Shown here piece by piece: positions 9,510 through 25,546 of a stretch of 64,000 bases of DNA. Within the stretch, counting starts at the first letter, position 1, and each line of letters starts with the position of its first letter. A program made the translations under genes and the position numbers. Source of the DNA: Thermobispora bispora DSM 43833 (GTDB lineage: Bacteria; Actinomycetota; Actinomycetes; Streptosporangiales; Streptosporangiaceae). The stretch spans positions 3,348,001 to 3,412,000 of the forward strand of contig NC_014165.1 of assembly GCF_000092645.1 (NCBI RefSeq). The letters are read 5' to 3'. The notes beneath the pieces were generated by a model, which was not told the DNA's origin, ran no database searches, and saw only the letters and a program-made list of their open reading frames with translations.

Positions 9510-11690
9510 ATGGATCTCGATCGGCTGGCCGCCGGCGCGCACCACGACCCGCACTCGATCCTCGGCGCGCACCCCGGGCCGGAGGGCGTCACGATCCGCG
9601 CACTGCGGCCGCTCGCCGAGAAGGTCGAGGCCATCGTGGACGGCACCGCCCACGAGCTGCGGCACGTCGCCCACGGGGTGTTCGAGGTGACCATCCCCGG
9701 GCTGGACAAGATCCCGGACTACCGGCTGCGGATCACCTATCCGGGCGCGCCGCCGTACGAGACGGACGACCCGTACCGGCACCTGCCGACCCTCGGCGAG
9801 TTCGACCTGCACCTCATCCACGAGGGCCGGCATGAGCGGCTGTGGGAGGTGCTCGGCGCCCGGGTCATGCGGCACGAGGACGTCGACGGCACCGCGTTCA
9901 CCGTGTGGGCGCCGAACGCCCGCGGCGTCCGGGTGATCGGCGACTTCAACCACTGGGACGGCACGGCCTGCCCGATGCGCTCGCTCGGCCGGTCGGGGGT
10001 GTGGGAGCTGTTCCTCCCCGGGGTCGGGCCGGGGGCCCGGTACAAGTTCCAGGTCCTCGGCATCGACGGCGTGTGGCGGGAGAAGGCGGACCCGATGGCC
10101 CGCCGGACCGAGGTCCCGCCGGCCACCGCGTCGATCGTGGAGCGGTCCGCGTACGAGTGGCGGGACGCGGAGTGGATGGCCGCCCGCGCCCGGCGGGATC
10201 CGCTCACCGGGCCGATGAGCATCTACGAGGTGCACCTCGGCTCGTGGCGGCCCGGGCTGTCCTACCGGCGGCTCGCGGTCGAGCTGGTCGAGTACGTCAC
10301 CGAGATGGGCTTCACCCACGTGGAGTTCCTGCCGGTGGCCGAGCACCCGTTCGGCGGGTCGTGGGGCTACCAGGTCACCTCGTACTACGCGCCGACCGCC
10401 CGGTTCGGCACCCCCGACGACTTCCGCTACCTGGTGGACGAGCTGCACCGCGCCGGCATCGGGGTGATCCTCGACTGGGTGCCCGCGCACTTCCCCACCG
10501 ACGAGTGGGCGCTCGCCCGGTTCGACGGCACCCCGCTGTACGAGCACGCCGACCCGCGGCGGGGCGAGCACCCGGACTGGGGCACCTACGTCTTCGACTA
10601 CGGCCGGAACGAGGTCCGCAACTTCCTCGTCGCCAACGCGCTCTACTGGCTGAAGGAATTCCACATCGACGGCCTGCGCGTGGACGCCGTCGCCTCCATG
10701 CTCTACCTCGACTACTCGCGGCGCGAGGGCGAGTGGACCCCGAACATCCACGGCGGCCGGGAGAACCTCGAGGCGATCGCCTTCCTGAAGGAGCTGAACA
10801 CGGTCTGCTACCGCGAGGTGCCCGGGATCGTGATGATCGCCGAGGAGTCCACGGCCTGGCCGGGCGTGTCCCGCCCGGTGCACCTGGGCGGGCTCGGGTT
10901 CGGCCTGAAGTGGAACATGGGCTGGATGCACGACACGCTCAAGTACCTGTCGCACGACCCGATCCACCGGCAGTACCACCACCACGAGGTGACCTTCTCC
11001 CTGGTGTACGCGTTCTCGGAGAACTTCGTGCTGCCGCTCTCGCACGACGAGGTCGTGCACATGAAGGGGTCGCTGCTCGCCAAGATGCCCGGGGACGAGT
11101 GGCAGCGCTTCGCCAACCTGCGCGCGCTCCTGGCGTACATGTGGGCGCACCCGGGCAAGCAGCTCCTCTTCATGGGCGGGGAGTTCGGCCAGGGCGCGGA
11201 GTGGTCGGAGGCGCACGGCCTCGACTGGTGGGTGCTCGACTTCGAGTACCACCGGGGCGTGCAGCGCCTGGTGCAGGACCTCAACCGGATCTACCGGGAG
11301 ACGCCGGCGCTGTACACCCGGGACTTCACCCCGGACGGGTTCCGGTGGATCGAGGCGAACGACGCGGCGCGGAACGTGCTGGCCTTCCTGCGCTACGGCT
11401 CGGACGGCTCGGTGCTCGCCTGCGTGGTGAACTTCGCCGGCATCCCGCACGAGGACTACCACCTGGGCCTGCCGGTGGGCGGCCGGTGGGAGGAGATCCT
11501 CAACACCGACTCCTTCCTCTACGCGGGCAGCGGGGTGGGGAACCTCGGCGCGGTCGAGGCGTCCGCCACGCCGTGCCACGGCCTGCCCTACTCGGCCCGG
11601 CTCCGCCTGCCGCCGCTCGGCGCGCTCTGGCTCCGGCCGGCCACGGGGTCCCCGGCGCGCGAGCGGGACGCGGACGGCCGGTCCGGCTGA
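9510..11690 (+). CDS. glgB: 1,4-alpha-glucan branching enzyme
   Basis: This enzyme introduces alpha-1,6 branches into the linear glucan made by GlgE. With the ATG at 9510 it has 726 residues and starts [25 protein letters not shown] lies 7 nt upstream. An earlier GTG at 9474 is also in frame and would add 12 residues but lacks a visible ribosome binding site. The order is an N-terminal CBM48 region (YDxHxxLGAH type, then [20 protein letters not shown]), the GH13_9 barrel with nucleophile D392 ([17 protein letters not shown]), acid/base E445 ([12 protein letters not shown]) and D513 ([15 protein letters not shown]), and a C-terminal beta domain. It is the last gene of the GlgE-pathway operon. 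Confidence 0.95.
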
Positions 11691-11710
11691 GCGGCGGGCC
11701 CGGCTCCGGG

Positions 11711-11820
11711 GCCCGAGCAGCGAGGGCCGGATGAGGTCGCCGGTGTTCATCGCCATCCGGGGTTCCCTGGGCCCATGCAGCGGGGCCGGACGAGGTGGCC
11801 GGTGTTCATCGCCATCGCGG
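11711..11820. repeat. Two imperfect direct repeats, period about 60 bp
   Basis: Copy 1 (from 11711) and copy 2 (from 11771) share GCCGGTGTTCATCGCCAT-type cores and an upstream GCAGCG GGGCCGGA segment, with a one-base gap between copies. They lie directly after the glgB stop. The repeated segments are non-coding in any convincing frame. Function is unknown; they may be decayed duplications of the operon's 3' region. Confidence 0.6.
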
Positions 11821-11885
11821 ACCCCGGGCGCGCGAAGCGGGGGCTCGATGACGCCCGGCCGTTCCACCGCGGCGCCACGATGCCG

Positions 11886-11971
11886 CCCCGCCACCATCCC
11901 TGAGCCGTACAGGCCCCGCCAGCATCCCGGAGGCTCAACAGGCCCGGCCACCATTCCGGGGGCCCAAAACG
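11886..11971. repeat. Three imperfect tandem repeats of 28-29 bp
   Basis: Units start at 11886, 11914 and 11943. Each begins CCC(C/G)GCCA(C/G)CAT and is followed by a CCGG- or CTGAG-containing half. The array ends about 12 bp before the -35 element of the chitinase promoter. It could be a binding array or simple slippage; nothing in the sequence decides this. Confidence 0.55.
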
Positions 11972-11982
11972 GGGCGAACGCA

Positions 11983-12011
11983 TTGACGCGCCACCGCGGC
12001 GGGCTTACCCT
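11983..12011 (+). promoter_or_regulatory. Housekeeping-type promoter of the chitinase gene
   Basis: TTGACG at 11983-11988 and TACCCT at 12006-12011 are separated by exactly 17 bp, a good match to actinobacterial principal-sigma promoters. Transcription would begin near 12017-12019, immediately before the operator palindrome. Confidence 0.75.
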
Positions 12012-12020
12012 GCGGTCAAA

Positions 12021-12043
12021 CTGATAGGAAACTTTCCTATCAG
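12021..12043. promoter_or_regulatory. Perfect operator palindrome in the chitinase leader
   Basis: Arms CTGATAGGAAA and TTTCCTATCAG (11 bp each) flank a single C. The AGGAAA/TTTCCT core resembles the operators reported for ROK-family repressors of chitosan and other sugar genes in actinomycetes (from memory of the family). The site lies just downstream of the predicted transcription start, so a bound repressor would block the polymerase. No dedicated regulator lies beside the chitinase; the ROK gene at 42289-43518 is one candidate, untested. Confidence 0.75.
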
Positions 12044-12073
12044 ATAGAACCGATCCCCTACCTGGAGTGACCG

Positions 12074-13702
12074 TTGCGACGATTGCTGCTCGGGCCCCTG
12101 CTCGCGGGGGCAGCGCTCCTCGCTCCGCTCGCCATCGGGACCGCGACCGCCGCCACCCCGGCGACCGCCACGTACTCCACGGACTCTGACTGGGAGACCG
12201 GCTTCCAGGGCAAGTTCACCATCAAGGCCGGGTCCTCCACCCTGCAGAGCTGGACGCTCGAGTTCGACGTGCCGCCCGGCACGACGATCAGCTCCGCCTG
12301 GGACGCCCGGATGACCAGGAACGGGAACCACTACACGTTCACCAACCCGACCTGGTACGAGCCCCTCGCCCCCGGGGCGTCCACCACCTTCGGCTTCATC
12401 GGCGCGCCCGGTGGCGGCTTCACCCCGCTGAACTGCACGCTCAACGGCCAGCCGTGCTCCGGCGAACCCGGCTCCCCCGGCCCGTCGCCGACCTCCTCCC
12501 CCTCCCCCACCGTCAGCCCGAGCCCGTCCCCGCCGGTCAGCCCCAGCCCGTCGCCGACGGTGACCACGTCCCCCAACCCCGGCGGTGACAAGAAGATCGT
12601 CGGCTACTTCACCGAGTGGGGCGTCTACGGGCGCCAGTACTTCGTCAAGAACCTCGTCACCAGCGGCACCGCCTCCAAGATCGACTACATCAACTACGCC
12701 TTCGGCAACGTCACCAACGGCCAGTGCGCCATCGGCGACTCGTACGCGGCGTACGACATGGCCTACACCGCGGAGAACAGCGTGGACGGCAAGGCGGACA
12801 CCTGGGACACCGGCGCGCTCCGCGGCAACTTCAACCAGCTCCGCAAGCTCAAGGCCATGTACCCGCACATCAAGGTCATCTGGTCGTTCGGCGGCTGGAC
12901 CTGGTCGAGCGGCTTCGCCGAGGCGGCCCGCAACCCCGAGGCCTTCGCCGAGTCCTGCTACCGGCTGCTGAAGGACCCGCGCTGGGCCGACGTGTTCGAC
13001 GGGATCGACATCGACTGGGAGTACCCGAACGCCTGCGGGCTGAGCTGCGACACCAGCGGGCCGGACGCCTTCCGGAGGCTCATGGCCGCGCTCCGCGCCA
13101 AGTTCGGCCCCGACTTCCTGGTGACCGCGGCGATCAGCGGTGACGGCACCTCGGGCGGCAAGCTCGACGCCGCGGACTACGCCGGCGCGGCGCAGTACGT
13201 CGACTGGTACCTCGTCATGACGTACGACTACTTCGGCGCCTGGGCGGCGACCGGGCCGACCGCCCCGCACTCGCCGCTCACCTCCTACAGCGGGATCCCC
13301 ACGGCCGGCTTCTACGCGGACGCGGCCATCCAGAAGCTGAAGAGCAAGGGCATCCCCGCGAACAAGCTCCTGCTCGGCATCGGCTTCTACGGCCGCGGCT
13401 GGACCGGGGTCACCCAGAGCGCGCCCGGCGGCACCGCCACCGGCCCGGCACCGGGCACCTACGAGCAGGGCGTCGAGGACTACAAGGTGCTCAAGACGAG
13501 CTGCCCGGCCACCGGGACCATCGCCGGCACGGCGTACGCCCACTGCGGCAACAACTGGTGGAGCTACGACACCCCGGCGACGATCGCGGGGAAGATGGAC
13601 TACGTCAAGAACCAGGGCCTCGGCGGCGCGTTCATCTGGGAGTTCAGCGGTGACACCGCCAACGGCGAGCTGGCGGCCGCCGTGGCCGGCAACCTCCGGT
13701 AG
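12074..13702 (+). CDS. Secreted chitinase: CBM2 plus GH18
   Basis: The 542-residue protein should hydrolyse chitin outside the cell. Translation starts at a TTG (12074) with GGAG 6 nt upstream. Residues 1 to about 28 form a signal peptide (RR, then a Leu/Ala-rich core, ending TATAA). A family 2 carbohydrate-binding module follows (about 30-132; DWETGFQGKFTI, a PTWYEPLAPG segment, Cys near both ends), then a Pro/Ser/Thr linker (about 135-170), then the GH18 domain starting KKIVGYFTEWGVYGR. The catalytic DxxDxDxE motif is FDGIDIDWEYP with acid E316. The gene stands alone behind its own promoter, operator and terminators. Confidence 0.95.
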   Translation: MRRLLLGPLLAGAALLAPLAIGTATAATPATATYSTDSDWETGFQGKFTIKAGSSTLQSWTLEFDVPPGTTISSAWDARMTRNGNHYTFTNPTWYEPLAPGASTTFGFIGAPGGGFTPLNCTLNGQPCSGEPGSPGPSPTSSPSPTVSPSPSPPVSPSPSPTVTTSPNPGGDKKIVGYFTEWGVYGRQYFVKNLVTSGTASKIDYINYAFGNVTNGQCAIGDSYAAYDMAYTAENSVDGKADTWDTGALRGNFNQLRKLKAMYPHIKVIWSFGGWTWSSGFAEAARNPEAFAESCYRLLKDPRWADVFDGIDIDWEYPNACGLSCDTSGPDAFRRLMAALRAKFGPDFLVTAAISGDGTSGGKLDAADYAGAAQYVDWYLVMTYDYFGAWAATGPTAPHSPLTSYSGIPTAGFYADAAIQKLKSKGIPANKLLLGIGFYGRGWTGVTQSAPGGTATGPAPGTYEQGVEDYKVLKTSCPATGTIAGTAYAHCGNNWWSYDTPATIAGKMDYVKNQGLGGAFIWEFSGDTANGELAAAVAGNLR

Positions 13703-13760
13703 CCACGCCGCACCCTGACGCCTCCGATCCCCCTCGGGAATCCCTAGGGCGACCCAGGAT

Positions 13761-13799
13761 CCGCGGCGGTCCCGCCAGGGCGTTCCGGGACCGCCGCGG
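13761..13799 (+). terminator. Strong hairpin downstream of the chitinase gene
   Basis: Arms CCGCGGCGGTCCC (13761-13773) and GGGACCGCCGCGG (13787-13799) are perfectly complementary across a 13-nt loop. There is no T-run after it, so it may be an mRNA-stabilising or intrinsic terminator hairpin of the actinobacterial kind. Confidence 0.55.
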
Positions 13800-13816
13800 A
13801 AGCCCACCCCCTCCAC

Positions 13817-13850
13817 AGGCCCCCGCCACCCCCTCCGGCGGGGGCCTTTC
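13817..13850 (+). terminator. Rho-independent terminator
   Basis: Arms AGGCCCCCGCC (13817-13827) and GGCGGGGGCCT (13837-13847) form an 11-bp stem with a 9-nt loop, followed by TTTCC. This is the second hairpin after the chitinase stop and the more typical terminator. Confidence 0.75.
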
Positions 13851-14175
13851 CGCGCTCCCGCCCGCCGCTCCGGCCCGCCGTCCCGCTCGCCGGGTACGGC
13901 CGCGCCGCCGTACCGGCGCCTGTCCCCGCGACGCGCGCGAGGCGTCCGGCCGGCCGCCGATGGGTCGGTCGCTTTCATCGCCCTCGCGACGCCGCGCGAG
14001 CCGTCCGGGGCGCGGGGGCGAGAACCCGGACCGCGCCGGGCGGGCGGCGGCGCGATGAACCCCGGGAACGGGCGCGGACCAGGGCGGCCCGGCCGCGGGC
14101 TTTACGGTCTTTATCGGTCTTTGCCCACAGCGGATCCCGCGAGCACCTTCCGATGGATCCCTTAGGGTGGCCTTT
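13851..14175. other. Intergenic region upstream of the SppA-like gene
   Basis: I see no gene here. Near the 3' end, TTTACGGTCTTTATCGGTCTTT is a short near-tandem repeat (14101-14122) in an otherwise GC-rich stretch, about 55 bp before the sppA start. It may be part of the promoter region but no clear hexamer pair is visible. Confidence 0.4.
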
Positions 14176-15867
14176 ATGGAGGCGACGAGGACGATCGGAC
14201 AGACCCTCGAGAAGCTGCGGCGGCAGCGGAGCGCACCCTTGGTGCTCGAGCTCGACCTGACCATGGGGATCGTGGAGGGACCGCCCGCGGACCCGCTCGG
14301 CGCGATGCTGTCGATGCGCAAGATCCGCCTCGACGACGTGCTCGCCGGGCTCAACCGGGCGCGCCGGGATCCCCGGGTCAAGGCGCTGCTGGTGAAGATC
14401 GGCAACGCGCCGCTCGGGCTCGGCATGGTGCAGGAGCTCCGGACCGCGATCATCAAGCTGCGGGCGGCCGGCAAGCGCACCATCGCCTTCGCAGAGTCGT
14501 TCGGCGAGGTCAGCACCGGGACCGTCCCCTACTACCTCGCCACGGCCTGCGACCGGATCTACCTGCAGCCCTCCGGCGACGTGGGCCTCACCGGCCTCTC
14601 GGTCGAGACCCGGTTCCTCCGCGACGCGCTCGCCAAGGCCGGGGTGGAGTTCCAGCTCGGCCAGCGGCACGAGTACAAGACCGCGGCGAACGTGTTCACC
14701 CAGAACCACATGACCGAGCCGCACCGCGAGTCGACGGCGCGCATCGTCGAGTCCGCGATGGAGCAGGTCATCGAGGGGATCGCCCAGGGCCGCCGGCTCG
14801 ACCCCGCGCGCGTCCGCGAGCTGGTCGACCGCGGGCCGTTCCTCGGCGCCGAGGCGGTGGAGGCCGGGCTCGTGGACGGCCTGAAGTACCGGGACGAGGT
14901 CTACGCGGAGACCGTGGGCGAGGACGGCCGGCTCCGCTACGTCACCCGGTACGCCAAGGAGGCGGCGGCCAAGCGGCTGCCGCACCCGGGGGCCGGCGCG
15001 GTCGCGCTCATCCACGGCATCGGCCCGATCCGGCTCGGCCGCAGCGGCCGGTCTCCGCTCGGCGCGAGCGGGTCCATGGGCTCGGACACCATCTGCGCCG
15101 CGTTCCGCGCCGCGCGCAAGGACGACAAGATCAAGGCCGTGGTGTTCCGGGTGGACAGCCCGGGCGGGTCCTACGTCGCCTCCGACGCGATCTGGCGGGA
15201 GGTGCTCCTCACCCGCCAGGCGGGCAAGCCGGTGATCGTCTCGATGGGCGACGTCGCCGCCTCCGGGGGATACTTCGTCTCCATGGCCGCCAACGTGATC
15301 TTCGCGCACCCGGGCACGCTCACCGGCTCGATCGGCGTGTACGGCGGCAAGCCGGTGATCAGCGAGCTGCTCGGGAAGCTCGGCGTCACGTCCGAGGCGG
15401 TCTCGATGGGCGAGAACGCGGAGATGTTCTCCACCAGCCGCGAGTTCTCCGCGGCCCAGTGGGAGCGGCTGAACACCTGGCTCGACCGGGTCTACGAGGA
15501 CTTCGTCACCAAGGTCGCCGACGCCCGCGGGCTGAGCAAGGACCACGCGCACGAGCTGGCCAAGGGCCGGGTCTGGACCGGGGCGGACGCCGTCCGCAAC
15601 GGCCTGGTCGACGAGCTCGGCGGGCTGGAGGACGCGCTCGCCCTCGCCCGGAGCAGGGCGGGGCTTCCCGCCACCGCGCCGGTGCGGATCTACCCCCACC
15701 TGAACCCGCTGGAGCGGATCCGGCCGCCGGAGTCGAGCGAGGACCGGTCGGCCGCCATGGCCCGGCTCCGGGTGGAGGCGTGGGGCCCGTTCGCGCGGCT
15801 CGCCGGGGAGCTCGGCCTGCCCGCCTACGGGCCGCTCCTGCTCCCCGGCCAGTGGGTGATCCGCTGA
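14176..15867 (+). CDS. sppA: Signal peptide peptidase SppA, double-domain (67K type)
   Basis: This 563-residue protein has the two-domain serine-lysine protease layout of long SppA, which cleaves leftover signal peptides. I start it at the ATG at 14176 because AGGG lies about 7 nt upstream; a GTG at 14167 would add three residues. The general-base lysine is K168 in RHEYKTAANVF in the N-terminal half, and the nucleophile is S363 in GDVAASGGYFVSMAA in the C-terminal half, as in E. coli SppA. Unlike E. coli SppA, I see no N-terminal transmembrane segment, so membrane attachment must be peripheral or absent. A GC-rich hairpin follows at 15889-15914. Confidence 0.88.
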   Translation: MEATRTIGQTLEKLRRQRSAPLVLELDLTMGIVEGPPADPLGAMLSMRKIRLDDVLAGLNRARRDPRVKALLVKIGNAPLGLGMVQELRTAIIKLRAAGKRTIAFAESFGEVSTGTVPYYLATACDRIYLQPSGDVGLTGLSVETRFLRDALAKAGVEFQLGQRHEYKTAANVFTQNHMTEPHRESTARIVESAMEQVIEGIAQGRRLDPARVRELVDRGPFLGAEAVEAGLVDGLKYRDEVYAETVGEDGRLRYVTRYAKEAAAKRLPHPGAGAVALIHGIGPIRLGRSGRSPLGASGSMGSDTICAAFRAARKDDKIKAVVFRVDSPGGSYVASDAIWREVLLTRQAGKPVIVSMGDVAASGGYFVSMAANVIFAHPGTLTGSIGVYGGKPVISELLGKLGVTSEAVSMGENAEMFSTSREFSAAQWERLNTWLDRVYEDFVTKVADARGLSKDHAHELAKGRVWTGADAVRNGLVDELGGLEDALALARSRAGLPATAPVRIYPHLNPLERIRPPESSEDRSAAMARLRVEAWGPFARLAGELGLPAYGPLLLPGQWVIR

Positions 15868-15888
15868 GCCGGACGGGTCCGCGTACGG

Positions 15889-15914
15889 CCGGGCCGCCCG
15901 GGGCGGCGGCCCGG
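15889..15914 (+). terminator. Possible terminator after sppA
   Basis: CCGGGCCGCC and GGCGGCCCGG form a 10-bp stem with a 6-nt loop about 20 bp after the sppA stop. There is no T-run. The remaining stretch up to 16183 holds no gene I can support. Confidence 0.45.
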
Positions 15915-16183
15915 ACACACCCGAGGTGGCCGGGCCGTGCGGGTGTGCGGCCGGCCCGCCCGGAGCACACGGCCGGGACCTCCCCCACCACCCGCAGCAC
16001 ATCCTCTGCACCGAGGCCGCCTCTGGCGCGGTGCCCGGCGCGTCGCGATTCGGCTTGCCCGCGCCTCCGCCACCGGGGCGCGAAGCCGCCCGCACCGTCG
16101 CCGACGGCATGCGCAAACGCGGCCATCGACCGATTCGACATTCCAGGTGTGGGAAAAGCCGACTGCCCTTACCATCGCTTTCC

Positions 16184-16600
16184 GTGGCGGTGGAGGTCGG
16201 CTGGCGCCAGCTTCGGGCGAGCTTTATCTCGCAGAACGAGGCCGTTCAGCAGATGGCGGAGGGGCCTCCGGCGGCCCTGCTGCTTTTCTACAGTGTGGAG
16301 TGCGGGCTGAAAGCGTCGTTACTCCGTCGTCTTAAGCTTCACTCTACGGCTCAGTTGCGTCCGGAATTCCGCCGGCACGACCTGCACCGGCTGGCGAAGG
16401 AATTGCGCCTGCCGCCTACCTTGTGCGATCGCATGCAGCGATCCTGCCCATCGCAGCATGACCAGAAAACGCGGATTTCTTTCGAAGACCTGCACCAAGC
16501 ATGGCGATACGGGCATGCCCTGCAGCGGGACGAGGAGAAGCAGGCGATCCAAGTGTTGCGTGAGCTGAGGGACTGGTATCAGGGAGAATTGAGGGCATGA
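16184..16600 (+). CDS. HEPN-like small helical protein, partner of the dual P-loop protein
   Basis: I do not recognise a named family with certainty. From the GTG at 16184 the product is 138 residues and almost all helical. It contains ALLLFYSVECGLKASLLRR followed by RPEFRRHDLHRLAKELRLP and, near the C-terminus, FEDLHQAWRYGHAL. The pattern of an E-x-x-L-K helix, then H-D-L, then a long terminal helix is that of HEPN domains. Two R-x5-H pairs are present (RPEFRRH and RSCPSQH), which could be the HEPN ribonuclease motif R-x4-6-H; this is inference. There is no Shine-Dalgarno sequence. TACCAT at 16170-16175 would give a nearly leaderless message. Alternative in-frame starts are an ATG at 16109 and a GTG at 16190. 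The stop overlaps the next ATG (ATGA), so the two proteins are made together. Base composition is less GC-rich than the flanking genes. Confidence 0.7.
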   Translation: MAVEVGWRQLRASFISQNEAVQQMAEGPPAALLLFYSVECGLKASLLRRLKLHSTAQLRPEFRRHDLHRLAKELRLPPTLCDRMQRSCPSQHDQKTRISFEDLHQAWRYGHALQRDEEKQAIQVLRELRDWYQGELRA

Positions 16601-19317
16601 TGCCCGACGTCACGGACTCCGTCCCCGAGCACATCTACACCTGGGTGGATGTGGATGCCCACCTGGAAAAGCTCGCACTCTATAAGCGGTGGCCGGAATG
16701 GCTCCACGAGTGCGACGCATTCTGGGACGGCCTCGAAGTGACCGTCGCCCCGGCGGTTTCCGCCGAGGAAGTGCTCCGGTGGCTCGGGGAGCGATTCGGG
16801 GTCGGGTCCATTGTCAGGGACGAAGGGCCACCTGCCCTGCGCCTCGACGACATCCCTGGGCGCCCCTCCCGGAGGCTGCTTCCGATCACGATCAACCACC
16901 GCGAGCCTGAGGCCCACCGACGCGAGCCGCGATGGCGTGAGCGCCGCATCGTCCGCAGCCTCGGCGAGCCGCTGCCACCGCCGGAGTCCCATCTCCCACA
17001 TGGCGTCCGGATCGCCGCCTTCCATTCCTACAAGGGAGGCGTGGGCCGTACCCTGCACGCAATCGCACTGGCCGACGCTGTGGCCCGCAAGGGCGGCCGC
17101 GTACTGCTGATCGATGCCGACCTGGAGGCTCCCGGCATCACCTGGATGCTCGCCGGTCACGGCAAACGCGTGGACTTCAGTTACGAGGACTTCCTGGCGC
17201 TCCTGCACGCTTCCGCTGACGGGCGTCCGGACGAGGCCGTCTCCCTCGGCGCCGCCTATCTGCCGAACCAGGCGTTCGACAACGTCATCGTCATGCCGAC
17301 GCGGCGATCCCTCGCCGATATCGCACCACCCAAGATCGAACCCACTGATCTCCTCACGGCGGATCGGCCCATCTACTACCTGACGGAATCCCTGGCCGAG
17401 CTGGCCGCCGCATTGCATGCGTCCACCGTGCTCATCGACCTTCGCGCCGGCGGCAGCGAACTGTCGGCTCCCATCCTGCTCGACCCCCGGGTACAGCGGG
17501 TCTTCGTCACCACGGTCAGCGAGCAGTCATTGCACGGCACGGAGCGGCTCATCCGGGAACTCGGGCGACGTGCCCCGTCACGGAAGGGCGATCCGGCGAG
17601 CGCGATCATCATCACCCAGTTCCGGGAGCAGGCCGACCGATCGCTGGTGATCGAAGCGGCGGCCCGGTTGCGGGACGCGATCGCCACCACCCTGCAGCCG
17701 GAGCCGAATGAGGGCGAGGACATGACGGTCGACAACGACGTGGTGGTGGAGCCCACGCTGAGCGCGTTCCAGGATCACCTCCTTGCTCTCCCCGCCAACT
17801 GGGACGCGGTGATCGCACTCGCCCGACGCCAGCAGCTTCCGCAGCTCTTGGAGACGCTGGCAGAGGACCTCGCCTCCCCTCCGGCGGCGGCCGAGAGCGC
17901 GGATGAGTCGTTCCAGCAGAAGAGCTCCGAGGACGAACTGGCGCAAAGGCGCGAGCGACTGGAAACGTTCGCGAGGCGGCTGGCCTACGCCGAGACCGCC
18001 GACAGCACTGGCTTCCTTCCGACCGAGTCGCTGCGGAACCTGCTCACCTCGCATCGCACCGAGCCGCCGCTCTGCGTGGTGGTGGGCGCGAAGGGGTCCG
18101 GGAAGACGTTCACGCAGGTCCAGATGTGTTTCCGGGAGACCTGGCAAGGCTACGCCGAAGCTGTGGGCGTGGACAACGTGACGTTGGACGCCCGGCTCGC
18201 CCCGGTCTTCGTCTCCCGGCATCTGCAGGACCGCACCTCCGAACGGATCAGAGAGGTGCAGAAGCTCGCTTGCGCATCCCCCGGCGCCGAACCGGCGAGC
18301 CAGCTCGAGCTCCGTGACCTCATCGACACATCGCTGCGGTCCCCACTGTCCGACCTCGAGTGGCGGCGCGTGTGGCTGACCTGCATGGCCCGGGCGGTGG
18401 GCATCGAGGCGTCACCCGAGGACGTCGAGGAGAGGCTGGTCGACTTCTCGCGCACCTCGACGAGGATATTCCTCATCGATGGCCTCGAGGATCTGCTCCA
18501 GGAATTCGTCCGGAACGACGCGCAACGGCAGGCGCTCCGGGTTCTCCTCGTCGACTGTCTCGAATGGCTCCGTAGCCTCCGCGGCCGTCCGCTCGGCCTC
18601 ATCATTTTCATCCGGCGCGACCTCGTGCAGGCCGCGATCAAGCAGAACAGCGCCCAATTCCTCGCGCGTTATCGCGACTACGAGCTCAAATGGAATCCGG
18701 CAGAGGCCCTGCGGCTTACGCTGTGGGTGACTCAGCAGGCCAAGGCACTTTCACAGGTGGCGTCCAAGGCGATTCGGCAGGCGAGAGACGAGGACCTGAG
18801 CCGCCTGCTCATCCCGGTCTGGGGCGAGAAGATGGGATCGCCGCGCTCGCGAGAAGCGCGGTCCGACAGGTGGTTCCTGGCGGCGTTGTCCGACTTCAAC
18901 GGCCAGATTCAGGCACGAGATATCGTGACGTTCCTGGCCGAATCGGCGGCAGGCTCGGTCTCCGACACGCGCTACACGGACCGGCTGCTCATCCCCAGCG
19001 CCATGCGGAACGCACTGGTGACGTGTAGCAAGGAAAAGATCAGAGCCATCAGCGAGGAGAGCCCACAGGTGGGCGAGCTACTCAAACGCCTTGACGCGCT
19101 AGAGGCGGACAAGAAGCGCATTCCGTTCAGCCCGAATTCCGTGGGGCTGTCGAGTGAGGAGCTCGAAATTCTCGCATCCAACGGCGTCGTCTTCCGCGAA
19201 GAAGACCAGTATTGGATTCCGGAGATATTCCGCCACGGCCTCGCCTTCAAGGTGGTCGGCCGGCCCAAGATTCTCGCGATCGCGAACCAGGTTCGGCAGC
19301 GCAACTTCGACTGACCA
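16597..19317 (+). CDS. Large protein with ParA/MinD-like deviant P-loop and second AAA/STAND-like P-loop
   Basis: This protein has 905 residues and no function I can name. An N-terminal part (1-120, IYTWVDVDAHLEKLALYKRW, then FWDGLEV) is of unknown type. Next comes a ParA/MinD-like domain (about 138-420) with the deviant Walker A KGGVGRT at 146-152, in which the usual second Lys is Arg, followed by VLLIDADLEAPG. A charged linker (about 430-475) leads to a second ATPase with Walker A GAKGSGKT at 497-504 and Walker B RIFLIDGLEDLL ending near D628. The C-terminal third (650-905) is helical with a basic RRDLVQAAIKQN stretch, like sensor or winged-helix parts of STAND ATPases. The ATG overlaps the stop of the HEPN-like gene. 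Linking a putative HEPN effector to a regulatory NTPase is the usual architecture of prokaryotic conflict systems. The stop codon is at 19312-19314; the end given includes the next base triplet for the adjoining boundary only. Confidence 0.72.
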
Positions 19318-19725
19318 TCGAGCGACCCGTCGGAGGCAGCGCACGGTGGTCAGGTAGCCCTTGCCGGCCGCTGCCGCGCCGCCGGTCCGCGAATTTGGGC
19401 ACTAGCCAGGCCTTCGCGTGCGATAGTTCTCATTCGCGCAGTAGCGATGCCGTGACCTCGCCCGCCTCGAGCCCGTCCGGGCCCGCCGAGCGGCCGACGA
19501 TGGGCACCGGGCGCACCGGCGCACCTCGCCGGAGTTCGGGGCGGACCGCCGGGCGAGCCGTGCCCGCCGGGATCGGGCCGGACCATCGCCGGTCGGTACC
19601 GGCCCGGTCGCCGATGGCTGGGATCGCCGGGCATACCGGCGGGGCGGGCCCGCCGATCAGGACCGGGGTCCCTGGCACGGTCGGGACGCTGGCCCACTTC
19701 ACGGCCGGCGCCGAGGCCGGGGCGG
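19318..19725. other. Intergenic region after the two-gene island
   Basis: About 400 bp separates the end of the large NTPase from the convergent flavin reductase. I find no gene, terminal repeats, attachment site or transposon remnant. Composition shifts from mixed (GAATTTGGGCACTAGCC around 19390-19410) to very GC-rich after 19450, which may mark the edge of the inserted segment. Confidence 0.45.
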
Positions 19726-20217
19726 TCAGGTGACCGCGCGGTAGCGGGAGCGCAGCCGTACCAGCGGCGCGCGGGTGGCGTCCACGTAGTCGACCCCGAG
19801 CACCTCGCCGATGAAGAGCGTGTGGTCCCCGGCCGGGACGACCTGCACGCTCTCGGCCTCGAGCGCCGCCACCCCGCCCTCGACGATGAGCGCGCCGCTG
19901 TGCGCGCCGCGGTGGTGCGCCACGCCGGCGAGGAGCAGCCGCGCGCTCGGCCGGCCCGGGGTGGCGAACCGGGAGGCGATGGCCTGCTGGCCGTCGGCGA
20001 GCAGGCTCGCCGCCCAGCGGTCCCGGCGGAGCAGCACCTCGGTGACGTAGCTCTGCGAGGCGATGCTCACCAGCACCAGGGGCGGCTCCAGGGAGACCGA
20101 CATCAGCGACGAGACCGTGGTCCCGATGTCGTCTCGCTCCTCCTGGACCGTGATCACCGCCACCCCGGCGGCGAGCTGCGCCATGGCCTCCCGGAACGGG
20201 CCTTCCAGTGACGTCAC
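19726..20217 (-). CDS. Flavin reductase family protein (FMN-binding split barrel)
   Basis: The 163-residue protein resembles the NAD(P)H:FMN reductase components of two-component monooxygenases. It starts at a GTG (20215-20217) preceded by GGAGG about 5 nt upstream. Family features are FREAMAQLAAGVAVITVQ at the N-terminus, then TTVSSLMSVSLEPPLVLVSI, which forms the flavin pocket, and GDHTLFIGEVLGVDY near the end. It lies 106 bp downstream of the acyl-CoA dehydrogenase on the same strand. It could serve a flavin-dependent oxygenase elsewhere; none is seen in this window. Confidence 0.85.
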   Translation of the reverse strand: MTSLEGPFREAMAQLAAGVAVITVQEERDDIGTTVSSLMSVSLEPPLVLVSIASQSYVTEVLLRRDRWAASLLADGQQAIASRFATPGRPSARLLLAGVAHHRGAHSGALIVEGGVAALEAESVQVVPAGDHTLFIGEVLGVDYVDATRAPLVRLRSRYRAVT

Positions 20218-20323
20218 TCCGCCCTCCGTTCCCTCGGACTCCGGCGATCCACGCTAAAGCCTCGTGCCGGAGCCCGCGGCACCCCACCGCCCGCACACGC
20301 GGCCGCCGGGGCGGGCGGCGCGG

Positions 20324-21529
20324 TCAGCCCACGTACGGGTAGGCGCGCTTGAGCTCCTGACGGGCCACCGAGCGGAGGTGGACGGCGTCCGGGCCGTCGG
20401 CGATCCGCAGGCAGCGGGCCCAGGCGTAGAAGTACGGGAGCACGGTGTCCTCGGTCACCCCCATGCCGCCGAACACCTGGATCGCCCGGTCGATCACCTG
20501 GGTCGCCATGTTCGGCGCGGCGACCTTGATCGCGGCGATCTCGGTCCGGGCGCCCTTGGCGCCGTACCGGTCGATGAGCCACGCGGTCTTGTAGACGAGC
20601 AGCCGGACCTGGTCGATCTCGATGCGCGACCGGGCGATCGCCTCCTGGACGCTGCTGAAGGACGACAGGTGCTCGCCGAACGCCACCCGGGACTTCGCCC
20701 GGTCCACCATCAGCGCCAGCGCCCGCTCCGCCATGCCGATCAGCCGCATCGCGTGGTGGATCCGGCCGGGGCCGAGCCGCGACTGGGCGATCATGAAACC
20801 GTCGCCCTCGTTGCCGAGGAGGTTGGCCGCGGGCACGCGCACGTTCTGGAAGAGGATCTCCGCGTGGCCGTGCTGGTCGTGGTAGCCGAAGATCGGCAGG
20901 TCGCGCACGATCGTCACCCCGGGCGTGTCCCGGGGCACGAGGATCATGGACTGCTGCCGGTGCGGCTCGGCGCCGGGGTCGGTCTTGCCCATCACGATGA
21001 AGACCCGGCAGCGCTCGTCGAGGGCGCCGCTCGTCCACCACTTGCGGCCGTTGATCACGTACTCGTCGCCGTCGCGGACGATCTGCGCCGTGATGTTGGT
21101 GGCGTCCGACGACGCCACGTCCGGCTCGGTCATCGCGAACGCCGAGCGGATCTCCCCGGCGAGCAGCGGCTCCAGCCACCGCTTCTTCTGCTCCTCGGTG
21201 CCGAAGCGGTAGAGGATCTCCATGTTCCCGGTGTCCGGCGCCTGGCAGTTGATCGCCTCGGGCGCGATCACCGGTGACCACCCGGAGATCTCGGCGATCG
21301 GGGCATAGTCGAGGTTCGACAGGCCCGAGATCTCGGGCAGGAAGAGGTTCCACAGCCCGCGCCGCTGCGCCGAGCGCTTCAGCCGCTCGACCACCGGCGG
21401 CAGGGCGTGCGGGTCGTGCTCCGCCCGCCACCGGTGGTACTCGGGCTCGGCCGGGAACACCTCCTCCCGCATGAAGTCCCACATCCGGGCGCACAGCTCC
21501 TCGGCCTTGGCCGACAGCGCGAAGTCCAT
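20324..21529 (-). CDS. Acyl-CoA dehydrogenase family protein
   Basis: With the ATG at 21527-21529 the product is 401 residues (MDFALSAKAEELCARMWDFM); AGGGGGA lies just upstream. It has the flavin- and substrate-binding stretch FAMTEPDVASSDATN, then NGRKWWTSGA, and the C-terminal QVFGGMGVTEDTVLPYFYAWARCLRIADGPD, typical of medium- to long-chain acyl-CoA dehydrogenases. It oxidises an acyl-CoA to the 2,3-enoyl-CoA using FAD. It is separated from the upstream ligase gene by about 250 bp that carries paired palindromes, so it may have its own promoter. Confidence 0.93.
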   Translation of the reverse strand: MDFALSAKAEELCARMWDFMREEVFPAEPEYHRWRAEHDPHALPPVVERLKRSAQRRGLWNLFLPEISGLSNLDYAPIAEISGWSPVIAPEAINCQAPDTGNMEILYRFGTEEQKKRWLEPLLAGEIRSAFAMTEPDVASSDATNITAQIVRDGDEYVINGRKWWTSGALDERCRVFIVMGKTDPGAEPHRQQSMILVPRDTPGVTIVRDLPIFGYHDQHGHAEILFQNVRVPAANLLGNEGDGFMIAQSRLGPGRIHHAMRLIGMAERALALMVDRAKSRVAFGEHLSSFSSVQEAIARSRIEIDQVRLLVYKTAWLIDRYGAKGARTEIAAIKVAAPNMATQVIDRAIQVFGGMGVTEDTVLPYFYAWARCLRIADGPDAVHLRSVARQELKRAYPYVG

Positions 21530-21653
21530 CCGGTCCCCCTCTCTCATCCGCTTCGATCGAGCCGGTGGAGGCCTGGCGGGCGTGACGGCCCCGCCGCCAT
21601 GATCGGGCCATGCCCGGCGCCGGTCACCCGGCCCGGCGCCGGGGTGCCCGGCA

Positions 21654-21703
21654 CCGTGCGACCGCACGGCGATGGGCGGCCCACCACCGTGCGGTCGCAC
21701 CGG
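21654..21703. promoter_or_regulatory. Paired palindromes upstream of the acyl-CoA dehydrogenase
   Basis: CCGTGCG AC CGCACGG (21654-21669) is a palindrome in itself. A near-copy, CCGTGCG GT CGCAC(C)GG, lies at 21687-21703. Together they also form a 14-bp perfect inverted repeat (21656-21669 against 21687-21700). Such doubled symmetry suits two adjacent operator sites or a strong hairpin terminator for the ligase message. Position between the ligase stop and the dehydrogenase start allows either. Confidence 0.55.
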
Positions 21704-21778
21704 TTCCCGGCGGCCCGCGCCGGGGCCGCCTGCAGTCACCGGCCGCCGCGGGCGGTCCGGTGCCCAAGGTCGTCACGC

Positions 21779-23437
21779 TCACCTGTTCCGGAGTTCGCGC
21801 CGCAGGATCTTGCCCGTGGGCGTCTTCGGCAGCTCGTCGAGGAACTCGATCATCCGCGGGTACTTGTACGCCGCCATCCGGGCCCGGCAGAACTCGATCA
21901 GCTCCTCCTCGGTCGCCTGCGCGCCCGGCTTCAACGACACGAAGGCCTTGACCGTCTCGCCGCGGTACTCGTCGGGGACCCCGACCACGGCGGCCTCGCG
22001 GACCGCCGGGTGCTCGTAGAGCACGTCCTCGACCTCCCGCGGCCAGACCTTGTACCCGGCCGCGTTGATCATGTCCTTCTTCCGGTCGACGAGGTAGAAC
22101 CAGCCGTCCTCGTCCATGAACCCGACGTCGCCGGTGCGCAGCTCACCGCCGGGCAGGCTCTCGGCGGTCGCCTCCGGCTTGTTCCAGTAGCCGGGGATCA
22201 CCTGCGGGCCGGAGGTGACGATCTCGCCGACCTCGCCGGGCGGGAGCTCGCGGCCGTCGTCGCCGACGATCCGCACCACGGTGTTGAACACCGGCACGCC
22301 GACGGAGAGCGCGCCGGTGTTCGGGTCGACGGGCGCGCGCCGGCCGAGCGGCACGGCGTGCGACGGCGAGTTGGTCTCGGTCAGCCCGTAGATGTTGTGG
22401 ATGTAGATGCCGGTCTTCTCCAGGAACGCCTCGGTGACCGCCGGCGGGATCGGCGCCCCGCCCGAGTAGATCATCCGGAACGAGGACCAGTCCTCCTTGG
22501 TCACGCCGGGGAGCTGGGAGAGGCTGATGAACACGGTGATCGAGCCGACGGTGAAGGTGGGCCGGTGCTCCCGGATCGCGTCCATCACCACGTTCGGCTC
22601 GAACCGGTGCGCGATGATCAGCGGGCAGCCGAGGAGCAGCGCTATCCCGACGTGGCCGACCAGCCCGGTGATGTGGAACAGCGGCGCCACCCCGAGCACG
22701 CTGTCCTGCGGGGTGAGGCCCATCCAGTCCCGGTAGGTCTGGCTGTTGAACGCCATGGTGCGGTGGGTGTTCATCGCCCCCTTGGGCACGCCCGTGGTGC
22801 CCGAGGTGTAGGTGAGCACCGCGACGTCGTCGCCGCTGGGCCGGACCGGCTCCGGCCGGCGGCCCCGGTACCGGGCGATGAGCTCCTCCAGGTCGAGCGT
22901 GCCCTCGTGCCGGGCGCGCACGGTGGAGGCGAAGAGCCGCGGGTCGTCACGGGTCTGCCCGTCGAGCGGCGAGCAGGTGACCACGGTCTCCACCGCGGTC
23001 TCGCCGCTCGCGATCACGTCCCGGGCCACCGCCGCGTAGAGCTCCTCCAGGCAGACCAGCGCCTTCGCGCCCGAGTCGGCGAGCAGGTAGGCGAGCTCGC
23101 GGTGCTTGTTCATGGGGTTCACCGCGACGGCCGCGCCGCCGAGCTTCCACGCCGCGAGCAGCGCGATCACGAACGCCGGGTTGTTCTGCGTGTAGACGGC
23201 GAGCCGGTCGCCCCGGCCGAAGCCGCGCTCGGCGAGGGCGGCGGCGAGCGCGTCCGACCGTTCGTCGAGCTCGGCCAGGGTGAGCGCGCCGTCGAAGTAC
23301 TTGATCGCGATGCTCTCCGGGGCCCGCCGTACGGACGCCCGGAACAGGTCGAGCATGGTGTCGAACTCGGGGGCGATGTCCGCGGGCACCCCGGCGGAGT
23401 AGAGCTTGAGCCAGGGACGCTGCGCGTAGACGCTCAT
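21779..23437 (-). CDS. AMP-binding acyl-CoA synthetase
   Basis: The 552-residue protein activates a carboxylic acid to its CoA thioester through an acyl-adenylate. The start is the ATG at 23435-23437 (MSVYAQRPWLKLYSAGVP), which overlaps the stop of the upstream cyclase gene by four bases. Signature motifs are LTYTSGTTGVPKG (P-loop-like A3), YGLTETNSPSH (A5), the ELRTGDVGFMDEDGWFYLVDRKKDMI region (A7-A8) and the catalytic lysine in PKTPTGKILRREL (A10). The substrate is unknown; the dehydrogenase and cyclase neighbours suggest an aromatic, alicyclic or branched acid. Confidence 0.93.
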   Translation of the reverse strand: MSVYAQRPWLKLYSAGVPADIAPEFDTMLDLFRASVRRAPESIAIKYFDGALTLAELDERSDALAAALAERGFGRGDRLAVYTQNNPAFVIALLAAWKLGGAAVAVNPMNKHRELAYLLADSGAKALVCLEELYAAVARDVIASGETAVETVVTCSPLDGQTRDDPRLFASTVRARHEGTLDLEELIARYRGRRPEPVRPSGDDVAVLTYTSGTTGVPKGAMNTHRTMAFNSQTYRDWMGLTPQDSVLGVAPLFHITGLVGHVGIALLLGCPLIIAHRFEPNVVMDAIREHRPTFTVGSITVFISLSQLPGVTKEDWSSFRMIYSGGAPIPPAVTEAFLEKTGIYIHNIYGLTETNSPSHAVPLGRRAPVDPNTGALSVGVPVFNTVVRIVGDDGRELPPGEVGEIVTSGPQVIPGYWNKPEATAESLPGGELRTGDVGFMDEDGWFYLVDRKKDMINAAGYKVWPREVEDVLYEHPAVREAAVVGVPDEYRGETVKAFVSLKPGAQATEEELIEFCRARMAAYKYPRMIEFLDELPKTPTGKILRRELRNR

Positions 23438-24387
23438 TTGATCACCACGGGGTTGACGGGGGAACCGGCGGCCTTGCGGATCTTCAGCGGGGCGGCGACG
23501 TAGAGGAAGGTGTACTGCCCGTCGGCGGCGCAGTCCTCGGCGAGCCGCTCCAGGTCGCAGATCTCGGTGAGCACGACGCCGAGGTTGCGCATGAGCGCGC
23601 AGTGCAGGGGCAGGGCCACGCCGTGGTTCGGGTCGATGGTCACCTCGTTGGCGATCGTGTCGGTGACCAGGTTGGGGATCTCCATGTCGGCGAACCACTG
23701 GACGAGCTCGGGGCTGTAGACCAGGCCGGGCTCGCAGAAGTCCTCGTAGAACTTCTCGCCCTGCTCGTAGAAGAGCCGCAGGAAGTTCGTGCGGATGATC
23801 AGGATGTCGCGCTTCTCGATCGAGGTGCCCTGGGCCTCGGCGCAGGCCATCAGGTCCTCGTGGGTGAAGGTCTCGCCCTTGTCGAGGTTCGTCTTCCCGC
23901 GGAAGCGGGCCATGTCGAGGAGGATGCCCCGGCCGACGACGCCGCGCTCGGCGATCGGCTCGACGCTCGCCTTCTCCAGACCGCCGATGGTGGTGCGCGC
24001 GTCGTACCCGTTCCAGATCTGCCCGCCGTACCAGACGTGGCCGAGGGCGTCGTACTGGGTGGACCCCTGGAGGAAGGCGTCGATCTTGTCGTCCGCGTAG
24101 TGCAGCCCGCCCGGGAACTGCGGGGCGTCGTCGCGGTCCCAGCTCGACTCGTCGAGGATCATGGTCCGCTGGGCCGGGGTACGGCCCGGCCAGACCGGGT
24201 CGCCGCTGGGATGCCCGATGACGCGCTGCAGGGTGAAGACCTTGCCCGACCTGATGTGCCGGACGCCGCGGAACACCTCATCGGCGGTGAGGTAGTTCAG
24301 CGCGCCGACTTCGTCGTCATCCCCCCATTTCCCCCAGTTCTTCGGAGCGTCGCGGAGCAGTTCCTCCATCGTGGGGATTTCGGTCAT
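23434..24387 (-). CDS. Cyclase-family (kynurenine formamidase-like) hydrolase
   Basis: The 317-residue product begins at ATG 24385-24387 (MTEIPTMEELLRDAPKNWGK) with AGGAGGGGG upstream. It belongs to the metal-dependent cyclase superfamily: NWGKWGDDDEVGALNYLT at the N-terminus, and QGSTQYDALGHVWYGG, a variant of the HxGTHxDxPxH metal-binding motif in which the first His is Gln and the second is Gln too, as in other members of this long subgroup. A later EVTIDPNHGVALPLHCALMRN stretch carries further candidate ligands. It is the first gene of the leftward set and faces the dual-domain regulator. The substrate is not predictable. Confidence 0.82.
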   Translation of the reverse strand: MTEIPTMEELLRDAPKNWGKWGDDDEVGALNYLTADEVFRGVRHIRSGKVFTLQRVIGHPSGDPVWPGRTPAQRTMILDESSWDRDDAPQFPGGLHYADDKIDAFLQGSTQYDALGHVWYGGQIWNGYDARTTIGGLEKASVEPIAERGVVGRGILLDMARFRGKTNLDKGETFTHEDLMACAEAQGTSIEKRDILIIRTNFLRLFYEQGEKFYEDFCEPGLVYSPELVQWFADMEIPNLVTDTIANEVTIDPNHGVALPLHCALMRNLGVVLTEICDLERLAEDCAADGQYTFLYVAAPLKIRKAAGSPVNPVVIK

Positions 24388-24449
24388 GGGGGCACCCCCT
24401 CCTGACGAGGCAAACGGATCGTTCACTCGGTCGCCCGCGTGTGGAAGCC

Positions 24450-24478
24450 AAACTCGCACCGGATTAACTGCACGTCAA
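24450..24478 (-). promoter_or_regulatory. Possible promoter of the cyclase-ligase operon
   Basis: On the minus strand TTGACG (24473-24478) is followed after 17 bp by GAGTTT (24450-24455). The -35 is good and the -10 is poor. It lies about 65 bp upstream of the cyclase start and beside the regulator's palindrome. Confidence 0.35.
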
Positions 24479-24522
24479 GGCTTGATTTTTCGGGATTTAT
24501 CCGGTGAGGGGATCGACAGGGC

Positions 24523-24545
24523 TGTGTTCAGCTAGGCTGAACACA
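24523..24545. promoter_or_regulatory. Palindrome overlapping the regulator's -10 and start codon
   Basis: Arms TGTGTTCAG and CTGAACACA (9 bp) surround CTAGG, and the last base is the A of the ATG at 24545. TAGGCT at 24533-24538 sits where a -10 hexamer would be for a transcript starting at that same A. The message would therefore be leaderless, and a protein bound here would shut off its own gene. Confidence 0.7.
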
Positions 24546-25402: not shown

Positions 25403-25546
25403 TCCCGTCGCCCCGGATATCCACGTAAGACATAGGAGAAATCCGGATTACCCCCCACCTTGTGCATTGACGGACGAAGTCCTGCATGATTACCCATGAA
25501 GGGCGCCTGACAGCCCGCCAGTCACCGACGTCACAGGAGCCGGGTC

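Follow-up and report, generated by a model that had tools for sequence, protein, structure and literature searches.

A two-gene HEPN and fused-ATPase lineage of the PDC-M28 phage-defence candidate in Thermobispora bispora, with links to BREX type 2

Introduction

The closest described relative of the gene pair analyzed here is PDC-M28, a phage-defence candidate of PADLOC-DB 2.0 with three genes in the order HEPN-like protein (PDC-M28A), MinD-type KGGVGR ATPase (PDC-M28B), and Sll1717-type ATPase (PDC-M28C). The pair, termed P1 and P2, lies in a 64,000-nucleotide stretch of Thermobispora bispora DSM 43833 (the window). The genome is a single contig with 4,189,976 bases, of which the window covers positions 3,348,001-3,412,000. 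P1-P2 has homologous parts in the same order and, like PDC-M28, has a bacteriophage exclusion (BREX) type 2 neighbourhood in part of its loci. However, B and C are separate proteins in PDC-M28, whereas P1-P2 has one B+C protein and forms its own clade, and the PDC-M28A models do not detect the P1 of the window. The PDC names reportedly come from a 2024 preprint by Payne et al., which may describe PDC-M28. Literature searches with PDC-M28 and Sll1717 gave no paper, and no title or abstract start resembled P1-P2; bioRxiv preprints were outside their scope.

The nearest published ideas, as far as the available parts of both papers extend, are the HEPN-ParA dyad as a toxin-antitoxin system (PMC3710099) and the use of HEPN proteins as backup effectors, both in BREX itself and in BREX-related systems (PMC12839542). 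In the dyad, the HEPN gene MAE_18760 is paired with a gene for a ParA/Soj-type ATPase, as in P1-P2; unlike P1, its product belongs to another HEPN family with a conserved Rx4-6H motif, and the available sections mention no second ATPase. DUF499/HmaC of BREX-related type 1 also couples HEPN to a STAND/ORC-like ATPase, but there the HEPN domain is fused to an ATPase of another family, and no MinD domain is mentioned in the portion at hand (PMC12839542). Inactive MinD/ParA-like domains are reported from other actinobacterial conflict systems in the accessible part of PMC7159879. The HEPN-T proteins of AF0298 type (PF05168; 2hsb) resemble P1 in fold, in an Ex3K element, and in a conserved His upstream of an Arg that lacks a following His. 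They differ in that a PF05168 match is absent for the P1 of the window, and no nucleotidyltransferase partner is seen near P1.

Results and Discussion

Relation of P1-P2 to PDC-M28

By profile comparison, P2 is a fusion of PDC-M28B-like and PDC-M28C-like proteins, because its halves align with the two profiles. The PDC-M28B profile covers 211 columns (P2 residues 111-330, probability 99.2), and the PDC-M28C profile covers 403 columns (residues 446-895, probability 99.0, E 3.3e-18). The PADLOC models themselves capture less of the protein: PDLC04559 (PDC-M28B) scores E 1.5e-14 over 65 residues only, and PDLC04561 (PDC-M28C) scores E 2.3e-6 over residues 494-835. The preliminary description, made from the sequence alone, had called P2 a MinD/STAND chimera that matched no named system. 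These profile probabilities overturn that statement, and the KGGVGR variant is itself a curated NCBIfam domain. The link of P1 to PDC-M28A is less certain. A P1 profile aligns with 11 PDC-M28A relatives over 51 columns only (probability 89.4, E 2e-6), and the proteins share size (the PDC-M28A model has 138 positions), gene position, and invariant residues.

To sample the lineage, GTDB-based contigs were scanned with two peptide patterns from the P2 N-terminal domain, which capture the window lineage only. The scan yielded 34 loci, all actinobacterial by title. B and C share one open frame in the window, as they do in 33 of the 34 loci, the frame being broken in L056. Because B and C form one frame, P1-P2 is a variant lineage and not a plain PDC-M28 member. 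It is best described as a two-gene, fused-ATPase lineage of the PDC-M28 triad of HEPN protein, MinD-type ATPase, and Sll1717/STAND-like ATPase.

For comparison, 13 A-B-C triads were assembled: one from genome G057, ten from plasmid records (10 of 12 records were read; two further Burkholderia glumae records were left out), and those of G560 and G511, found by profile. The gene order A-B-C is identical in all 13, and each triad protein checked against PADLOC (five PDC-M28A, two B, three C) matches its model. Four of the plasmid triads (L063, L066, L069, and L071) adjoin tyrosine recombinase/integrase genes, and two of these plasmids are Enterobacter IncF conjugative plasmids. Among viral contigs, the PDC-M28C profile finds ten loci. 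Nine have A, B, and C in order, and L122 showed C only. The complete triads lie on IMG/VR contigs (L114-L121 and L123), which suggests carriage by prophages or satellites.

A third clade, from a family that contains Frankia, also encodes a fused MinD-Sll1717 protein of 900-939 residues (L097-L101, in genomes G551, G495, G575, G426, and G529). The three N-termini read carry the motif YSLRGGVGRS. A HEPN-like gene lies upstream in L099, L100, and L101; L098 has no clean frame there, and L097 begins at a contig end. Two phylogenetic trees, one built from 40 MinD domains and one from 42 second-ATPase domains, separate P2, the third clade, and PDC-M28 into three well-separated groups, with the P2 lineage as its own clade (support 100/99 and 100/100). 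One fusion event and two are indistinguishable in these unrooted trees. Two further loci (L102 and L103) hold frames of 516-548 residues that match the Sll1717-type half without a detected MinD partner and are distant kin of the second half of P2.

Association with BREX Type 2

The first knowledge of BREX type 2 (Pgl) came from Streptomyces coelicolor and phage phiC31. A tblastn search with Pgl proteins covered the 34 loci and the window. No BREX match was found within the window. The preliminary view that no other gene connects to the pair thus holds for this BREX search of the window but not beyond it, because BREX type 2 occurs elsewhere in this genome and in relatives. P1-P2 of L033 is flanked by pglX and pglW, and other small genes separate pglX from P1. 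In L043, the pair stands right after pglW. In G023, P2 is followed on its own strand by PglW, which begins at a distance of about 140 bases. The pair therefore abuts pglW in 3 of 36 P1-P2 genomes. The PglW proteins of L033 and L043 pass the NF033442 cut-off (1334 and 1527 bits), and PglX of L033 passes that of NF033451 (1533 bits). In both G023 and the L033 genome, matches to PglX, PglY, and the PglZ candidate come next; for PglZ, the query was the frame that succeeds PglY in G057. If a neighbourhood of about 20 kb is allowed for each of 18 PglW copies and genome size is taken as about 8 Mb, plain arithmetic gives a chance expectation of about 0.05 adjacencies versus the 3 observed, of which G023 and L043 are related copies. 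Five of the 13 three-gene relatives also lie inside BREX-2 loci (Table 1).

Co-occurrence was assessed at the genome level. Of the 36 P1-P2 genomes (L054 lies outside this set), 17 have a PglW above the cut-off, compared with 48 of the 388 class genomes. Eight of these 48 are among the 10 P1-positive genomes, leaving 40 of 378 controls, which are the class genomes minus those 10 and are taken as P1-negative. The crude association is strong (Fisher p 2.8e-7). Stratified over three families that hold 31 of the 36 genomes, with L028, L051, L055, L058, and L060 omitted for other or unsure families, it gives an odds ratio of 3.8 (p 0.005). Family labels of locus-derived genomes were assigned from names or matching coordinates, and the Streptomycetaceae label of family f20 was inferred. 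As a control, the Cas7 gene (PF09344) of clustered regularly interspaced short palindromic repeats (CRISPR) systems is likewise in crude excess, in 16 of 36 P1-P2 genomes versus 69 of 374. Its stratified odds ratio is 0.73 (p 0.62), an approximate figure because the denominators of families f19 and f20 were borrowed from the PglW survey. Given stratified ratios of 0.73 for CRISPR and 3.8 for BREX-2, the crude CRISPR excess reflects family composition, which does not fully explain the BREX-2 excess.

The genome of the window has its own BREX-2 run, with PglW at 1,764,897-1,769,018 followed by PglX, PglY, and the PglZ candidate, 1.6 Mb from P1-P2. Less than 0.5 kb separates its PglW and PglX matches, and P1-P2 is not there. 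P1-P2 is not a constant part of the BREX type 2 core. A Cas7 (PF09344) gene lies about 26 kb before this run (G000:C1:1738319-1780000), in what is likely a defence island.

P1 Is Predicted to Adopt a HEPN Fold

The P1 of the window has no significant Pfam, NCBIfam, or PADLOC match; hits to the 136 residues from 16190 are at chance level, as they are when Pfam is repeated with all 138. Among the 34 P1 rows, the commonest Pfam match is DUF4129 (7 rows, best E 0.0023). PF05168 (HEPN) appears in one row at E 0.004, not shown to pass the cut-off, and not in the P1 of the window. An AlphaFold2 model built with 34 aligned sequences is confident (mean predicted local distance difference test score, pLDDT, 92.6; predicted template modelling score 0.87). 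In a second structural comparison, its best match is 1ufb (Z 10.1, root-mean-square deviation, rmsd, 3.5, 111 aligned), and human sacsin HEPN (3o10, Z 9.5), 2hsb (Z 9.3), Csm6 (Z 8.7), 1o3u (Z 8.5), and HEPN-MNT toxins (Z about 7-8) also match. Judged by entry title or by the known identity of the entry, 26 of the 27 top rows are HEPN or HEPN-containing chains. The other is row 19, 3mfn, a protein of unknown function. Helical bundles can score such Z values by chance, as the tool warns, and Foldseek matches to the model are weak (best E 0.073). These comparisons predict a HEPN four-helix fold for P1.

The conserved residues of P1 are not those first proposed. R-x5-H pairs occur in the P1 of the window (R59-H65 and R86-H92) and had been taken as meaningful, but neither pair is conserved across the P1 rows, and the commonest aligned R-x4-6-H pair is present in 9 of 34. 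A catalytic R-x5-H in P1 was therefore rejected, and mutants of these pairs would probe the wrong residues. The relevant ones are instead E39, K43, H65, and R108. Together with Y109, they are invariant in an alignment of 48 HEPN proteins from three clades (34 P1, 11 PDC-M28A relatives, and 3 of the third clade). Anantharaman et al. (2013; PMC3710099) report an Ex3[KR] element in HEPN domains. In AbiV and in the AF0298 (2hsb) type of HEPN-T, the same authors note, the motif His is lost and a second conserved His lies upstream; this His might combine with the basic residue that is left to give an alternative active site. As judged from the alignment, P1 fits the AF0298-type pattern, with the presumed motif Arg kept, its His lost, a His upstream, and Ex3K.

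Domain Make-up of P2

The NCBIfam family of KGGVGR-motif variant ATPases, NF047398, covers P2 residues 138-322 (E 4.5e-48), and NF047389, the Sll1717-type P-loop ATPase family, matches residues 609-830 (E 2.2e-14) below its cut-off. The P2 model has a pLDDT of 81.9. Residues 134-428 match MinD, FlhG, and ParA structures with Z up to 20 (4rz3: Z 20.3, rmsd 3.4, 238 aligned), and the model thus places a MinD/ParA fold with a deviant Walker A in P2. The second half has weak structural matches only, such as that to the BREX ATPase BrxC (9zdx, Foldseek E 8.3e-5). PDB sequence searches with three of the alignments and one PDC-M28A protein gave nothing credible. The positions first given for the Walker lysines, K146 in KGGVGRT and K503 in GAKGSGKT, are correct. 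K503 is kept in 28 of 29 aligned P2 proteins. The exception is L043, beside pglW, where the second Walker A reads GAVGSGMV and both the MinD Walker A and P1 are intact; by sequence, this copy is a natural variant with one probably dead ATPase. L043 and L005 carry an equal module.

Table 1. Features of the P1-P2 pair in the window and triads located inside BREX-2 loci
Feature	Location	Strand	Basis or remark
P1 gene	16184..16600	+	138 aa, GTG start, TGA stop; open reading frame and start backed by homologues
P2 gene	16597..19314	+	905 aa, ATG start; PDC-M28B-like and PDC-M28C-like proteins fused, by alignment
E39-x3-K43 (Ex3[KR] element of HEPN domains)	16298..16312	+	48/48 rows
H65, conserved His N-terminal of motif Arg; candidate alternative active-site residue	16376..16378	+	48/48 rows
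R108-Y109, Arg taken as HEPN-motif Arg	16505..16510	+	48/48 rows; no conserved His at x4-6 after
P2 N-terminal domain, aa 8-133, TWVDVD and WDG stretches, no family assigned	16618..16995	+	alignments; alpha/beta in model
MinD/ParA/FlhG-fold ATPase domain, aa 136-428	17002..17880	+	NF047398 E 4.5e-48; 4rz3 Z 20.3
Deviant Walker A KGGVGRT, K146-T152	17032..17052	+	29/29 aligned P2 proteins
Second P-loop ATPase and C-terminal region, aa 445-905, PDC-M28C-like, Sll1717-type	17929..19311	+	PDC-M28C profile; NF047389
Walker A GAKGSGKT, G497-T504	18085..18108	+	Lys in 28/29 rows
Walker B-like strand FLIDGLEDLL	18469..18498	+	alignment; strand 623-627 in model
BREX-2 triad	NZ_CP130719		between pglW and pglX
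BREX-2 triads	NZ_CP020371, NZ_CP035707		
BREX-2 triads	G057, G560		between PglW and PglX

Linkage, Selection, and Spread of the Pair

The ATGA overlap of the genes (16597-16600) and their lengths are confirmed, with ATG 16600 as possible a start for P2 as ATG 16597. P1 lies directly upstream of P2 in 34 of 34 loci, with broken copies of P1 in L057 and of P2 in L056, and no one fixed operon surrounds them. The coupling of a small HEPN-like protein to a dual P-loop NTPase, as first described, thus agrees with the predicted fold and with this linkage. Neither result that the preliminary description had named as refuting was observed, whether a predicted structure lacking a HEPN fold or homologues that lie consistently apart and in housekeeping operons. 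Across 28 loci (378 pairs), pairwise identity among P1 proteins tracks that among P2 proteins (r 0.88). Purifying selection acts on both genes: dN/dS (ratio of nonsynonymous to synonymous substitution rates) versus L028 is 0.22 for P1 and 0.21 for P2. The lower guanine-plus-cytosine (GC) content noted earlier holds in part: 1-kb windows over P1-P2 have GC of 0.645-0.678, but the remaining ones of 10,000-26,000 span 0.664-0.759, mostly above 0.69, so the pair is low in GC and not uniquely so.

The distribution of the pair is patchy. P1 is present in 10 of 394 genomes of a class-wide draw, and within the family, 5 of the 36 other genomes carry a full-length P2. Flanking genes are common mainly to close relatives among the 34 loci, and none of six flank genes of the window matches the called flank genes of these loci at 45% identity or more. 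In L028, the closest relative, P2 is 87% identical, and only one piece of the flank upstream (1060 bases) matches strongly; its counterpart in the genome of the window is some 280 kb distant from the pair. These observations suggest that P1-P2 moves as a unit. No P2 match was found on plasmids, and the P2 profile found none in viral contigs.

Neighbours were scanned with home-made gene calls, taking at most two nearest genes per side of the 34 loci and dropping those under 60 or over 1000 residues. The scan was blind to PglW and PglX, which are too long and emerged in the separate tblastn search with Pgl proteins. A count of co-occurrence in defence islands, proposed in the preliminary description, gave a mixed outcome: the commonest PADLOC family matches 2 of the nearest 121 genes, and PglW stands beside the pair in 3 of 36 genomes. 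Searches against Pfam and defence profiles were similarly divided, with NF047398, PDC-M28B, and PDC-M28C matched by P2 and nothing significant for the P1 of the window. The suggestion of a new conflict module survives in that the pair is defence-linked in part of its loci; it fails in that the pair is a fused lineage of the PDC-M28 candidate and not wholly new.

Proposed Function and Alternatives

Prediction or comparison supports the fold of P1, the domain make-up, the linkage, the B+C fusion, and the BREX-2 neighbourhood and co-occurrence. We consider it an even proposition that P1-P2 is a fused PDC-M28 lineage acting as a mobile defence module, often with BREX-2 inside the locus or elsewhere in the genome, and with a HEPN effector under an ATP switch. 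A defence role is likely, and P1-P2 is probably a defence add-on and not a wholly new system. In this proposal, P2 would be an ATP-driven switch whose MinD-type half dimerises upon ATP binding. Detection of a product, either of infection or of a failing BREX complex, would fall to the second ATPase together with the C-terminal region. P2 would keep P1 inactive until the trigger, and P1 would then cut or clamp RNA via H65, R108, and E39/K43. The infected cell would be stopped, giving a second line behind BREX-2 and perhaps behind other systems too. The defence activity, the RNA target, the sensing roles, the control of P1 by P2, and the infection trigger are proposed here from what HEPN and STAND/MinD biology would lead one to expect.

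Several observations weigh against this proposal. PDC-M28 is a candidate defence system only, and the activity of P1-P2 is inferred. The tie between P1 and PDC-M28A consists of the 51 columns and the shared residue pattern, size, and gene position. The canonical HEPN catalytic motif is missing from P1, which may therefore not be an RNase, and the second Walker A lysine is lost in the homologue L043. As 19 of the 36 P1-P2 genomes lack a PglW over the cut-off, exclusive dependence of the pair on BREX-2 can be ruled out. The five genomes omitted from the stratified test are all without PglW, and three of them have the CRISPR gene. Within single families, the association is significant in Streptosporangiaceae only (p 0.04), versus 0.31 in Streptomyces and 0.09 in the Frankia group. 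The commonest Pfam families among the 121 nearest genes, with genes over 1000 residues excluded, are ordinary regulatory or metabolic ones. Although 68 PADLOC families matched neighbours, each of those among the matches listed occurs in 1 or 2 of the 121 genes.

A narrower form, which we put forward only tentatively, is that P1-P2 and its three-gene relatives are trans-acting partners of BREX-2. The double ATPase would watch BREX-2, for example PglW signalling or stalled PglX/PglZ action, and on failure would free the HEPN protein with its H65/R108 site. If true, restriction and cell suicide would be wired together in trans, from a distant chromosomal site.

Possible, but on balance doubtful, is a purely accessory role without a toxin, in which P1 would be a HEPN adaptor without catalysis, its ligand being RNA, a nucleotide, or the PglW kinase. 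P2 would then be a positioning or loading machine of MinD/ParA type with an ORC/STAND-like ATPase, and would bring a restriction complex, BREX-2 or a different one, to invading DNA. The lack of a canonical motif in P1 would suit such a role, since HEPN domains without the motif may act by binding, according to the available part of PMC3710099. The location of some copies within or beside BREX-2 and the weak resemblance of P2 to BrxC (9zdx) also point this way. However, the invariance of E39, K43, H65, and R108 in every protein of three clades is more than a scaffold seems to need, and more than half of the P1-P2 genomes (19 of 36) have no PglW over the cut-off.

We think it distinctly unlikely that the genes form a toxin-antitoxin-like pair, with P1 as the toxin and the MinD/ParA half of P2 as an antitoxin that alters or modifies it. 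The model is that of the HEPN-ParA/Soj dyad of MAE_18760, as given in the accessible part of PMC3710099, and the overlapping genes, the HEPN gene standing first, and the plasmid and viral carriage of the three-gene relatives would be in keeping with it. Nonetheless, the motif tabulated for MAE_18760 in that part is missing from P1, a simple antitoxin would hardly seem to need the conserved second ATPase half, and the BREX-2 association also speaks against it. A chromosomal housekeeping or partition-type function with no tie to conflict is suggested by the MinD/ParA fold, the ordinary neighbours, and the absence of P2 matches on plasmids, but the patchy spread, the variable chromosomal sites, and the embedding in BREX-2 of some copies and of the three-gene relatives make it very improbable.

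Conclusions

P1-P2 is a real, defence-linked pair and no categorically new system, and its link to BREX-2 is the most useful finding. The PDC-M28 candidate is now seen with fused actinobacterial lineages, of which the PADLOC models catch the P2 of the window in part and its P1 not at all. The layered effectors of BREX type 2 are poorly understood. A recurrent module of HEPN, MinD, and STAND-like parts, found inside, beside, or apart from BREX-2, offers a concrete candidate for second-line defence, with named residues.

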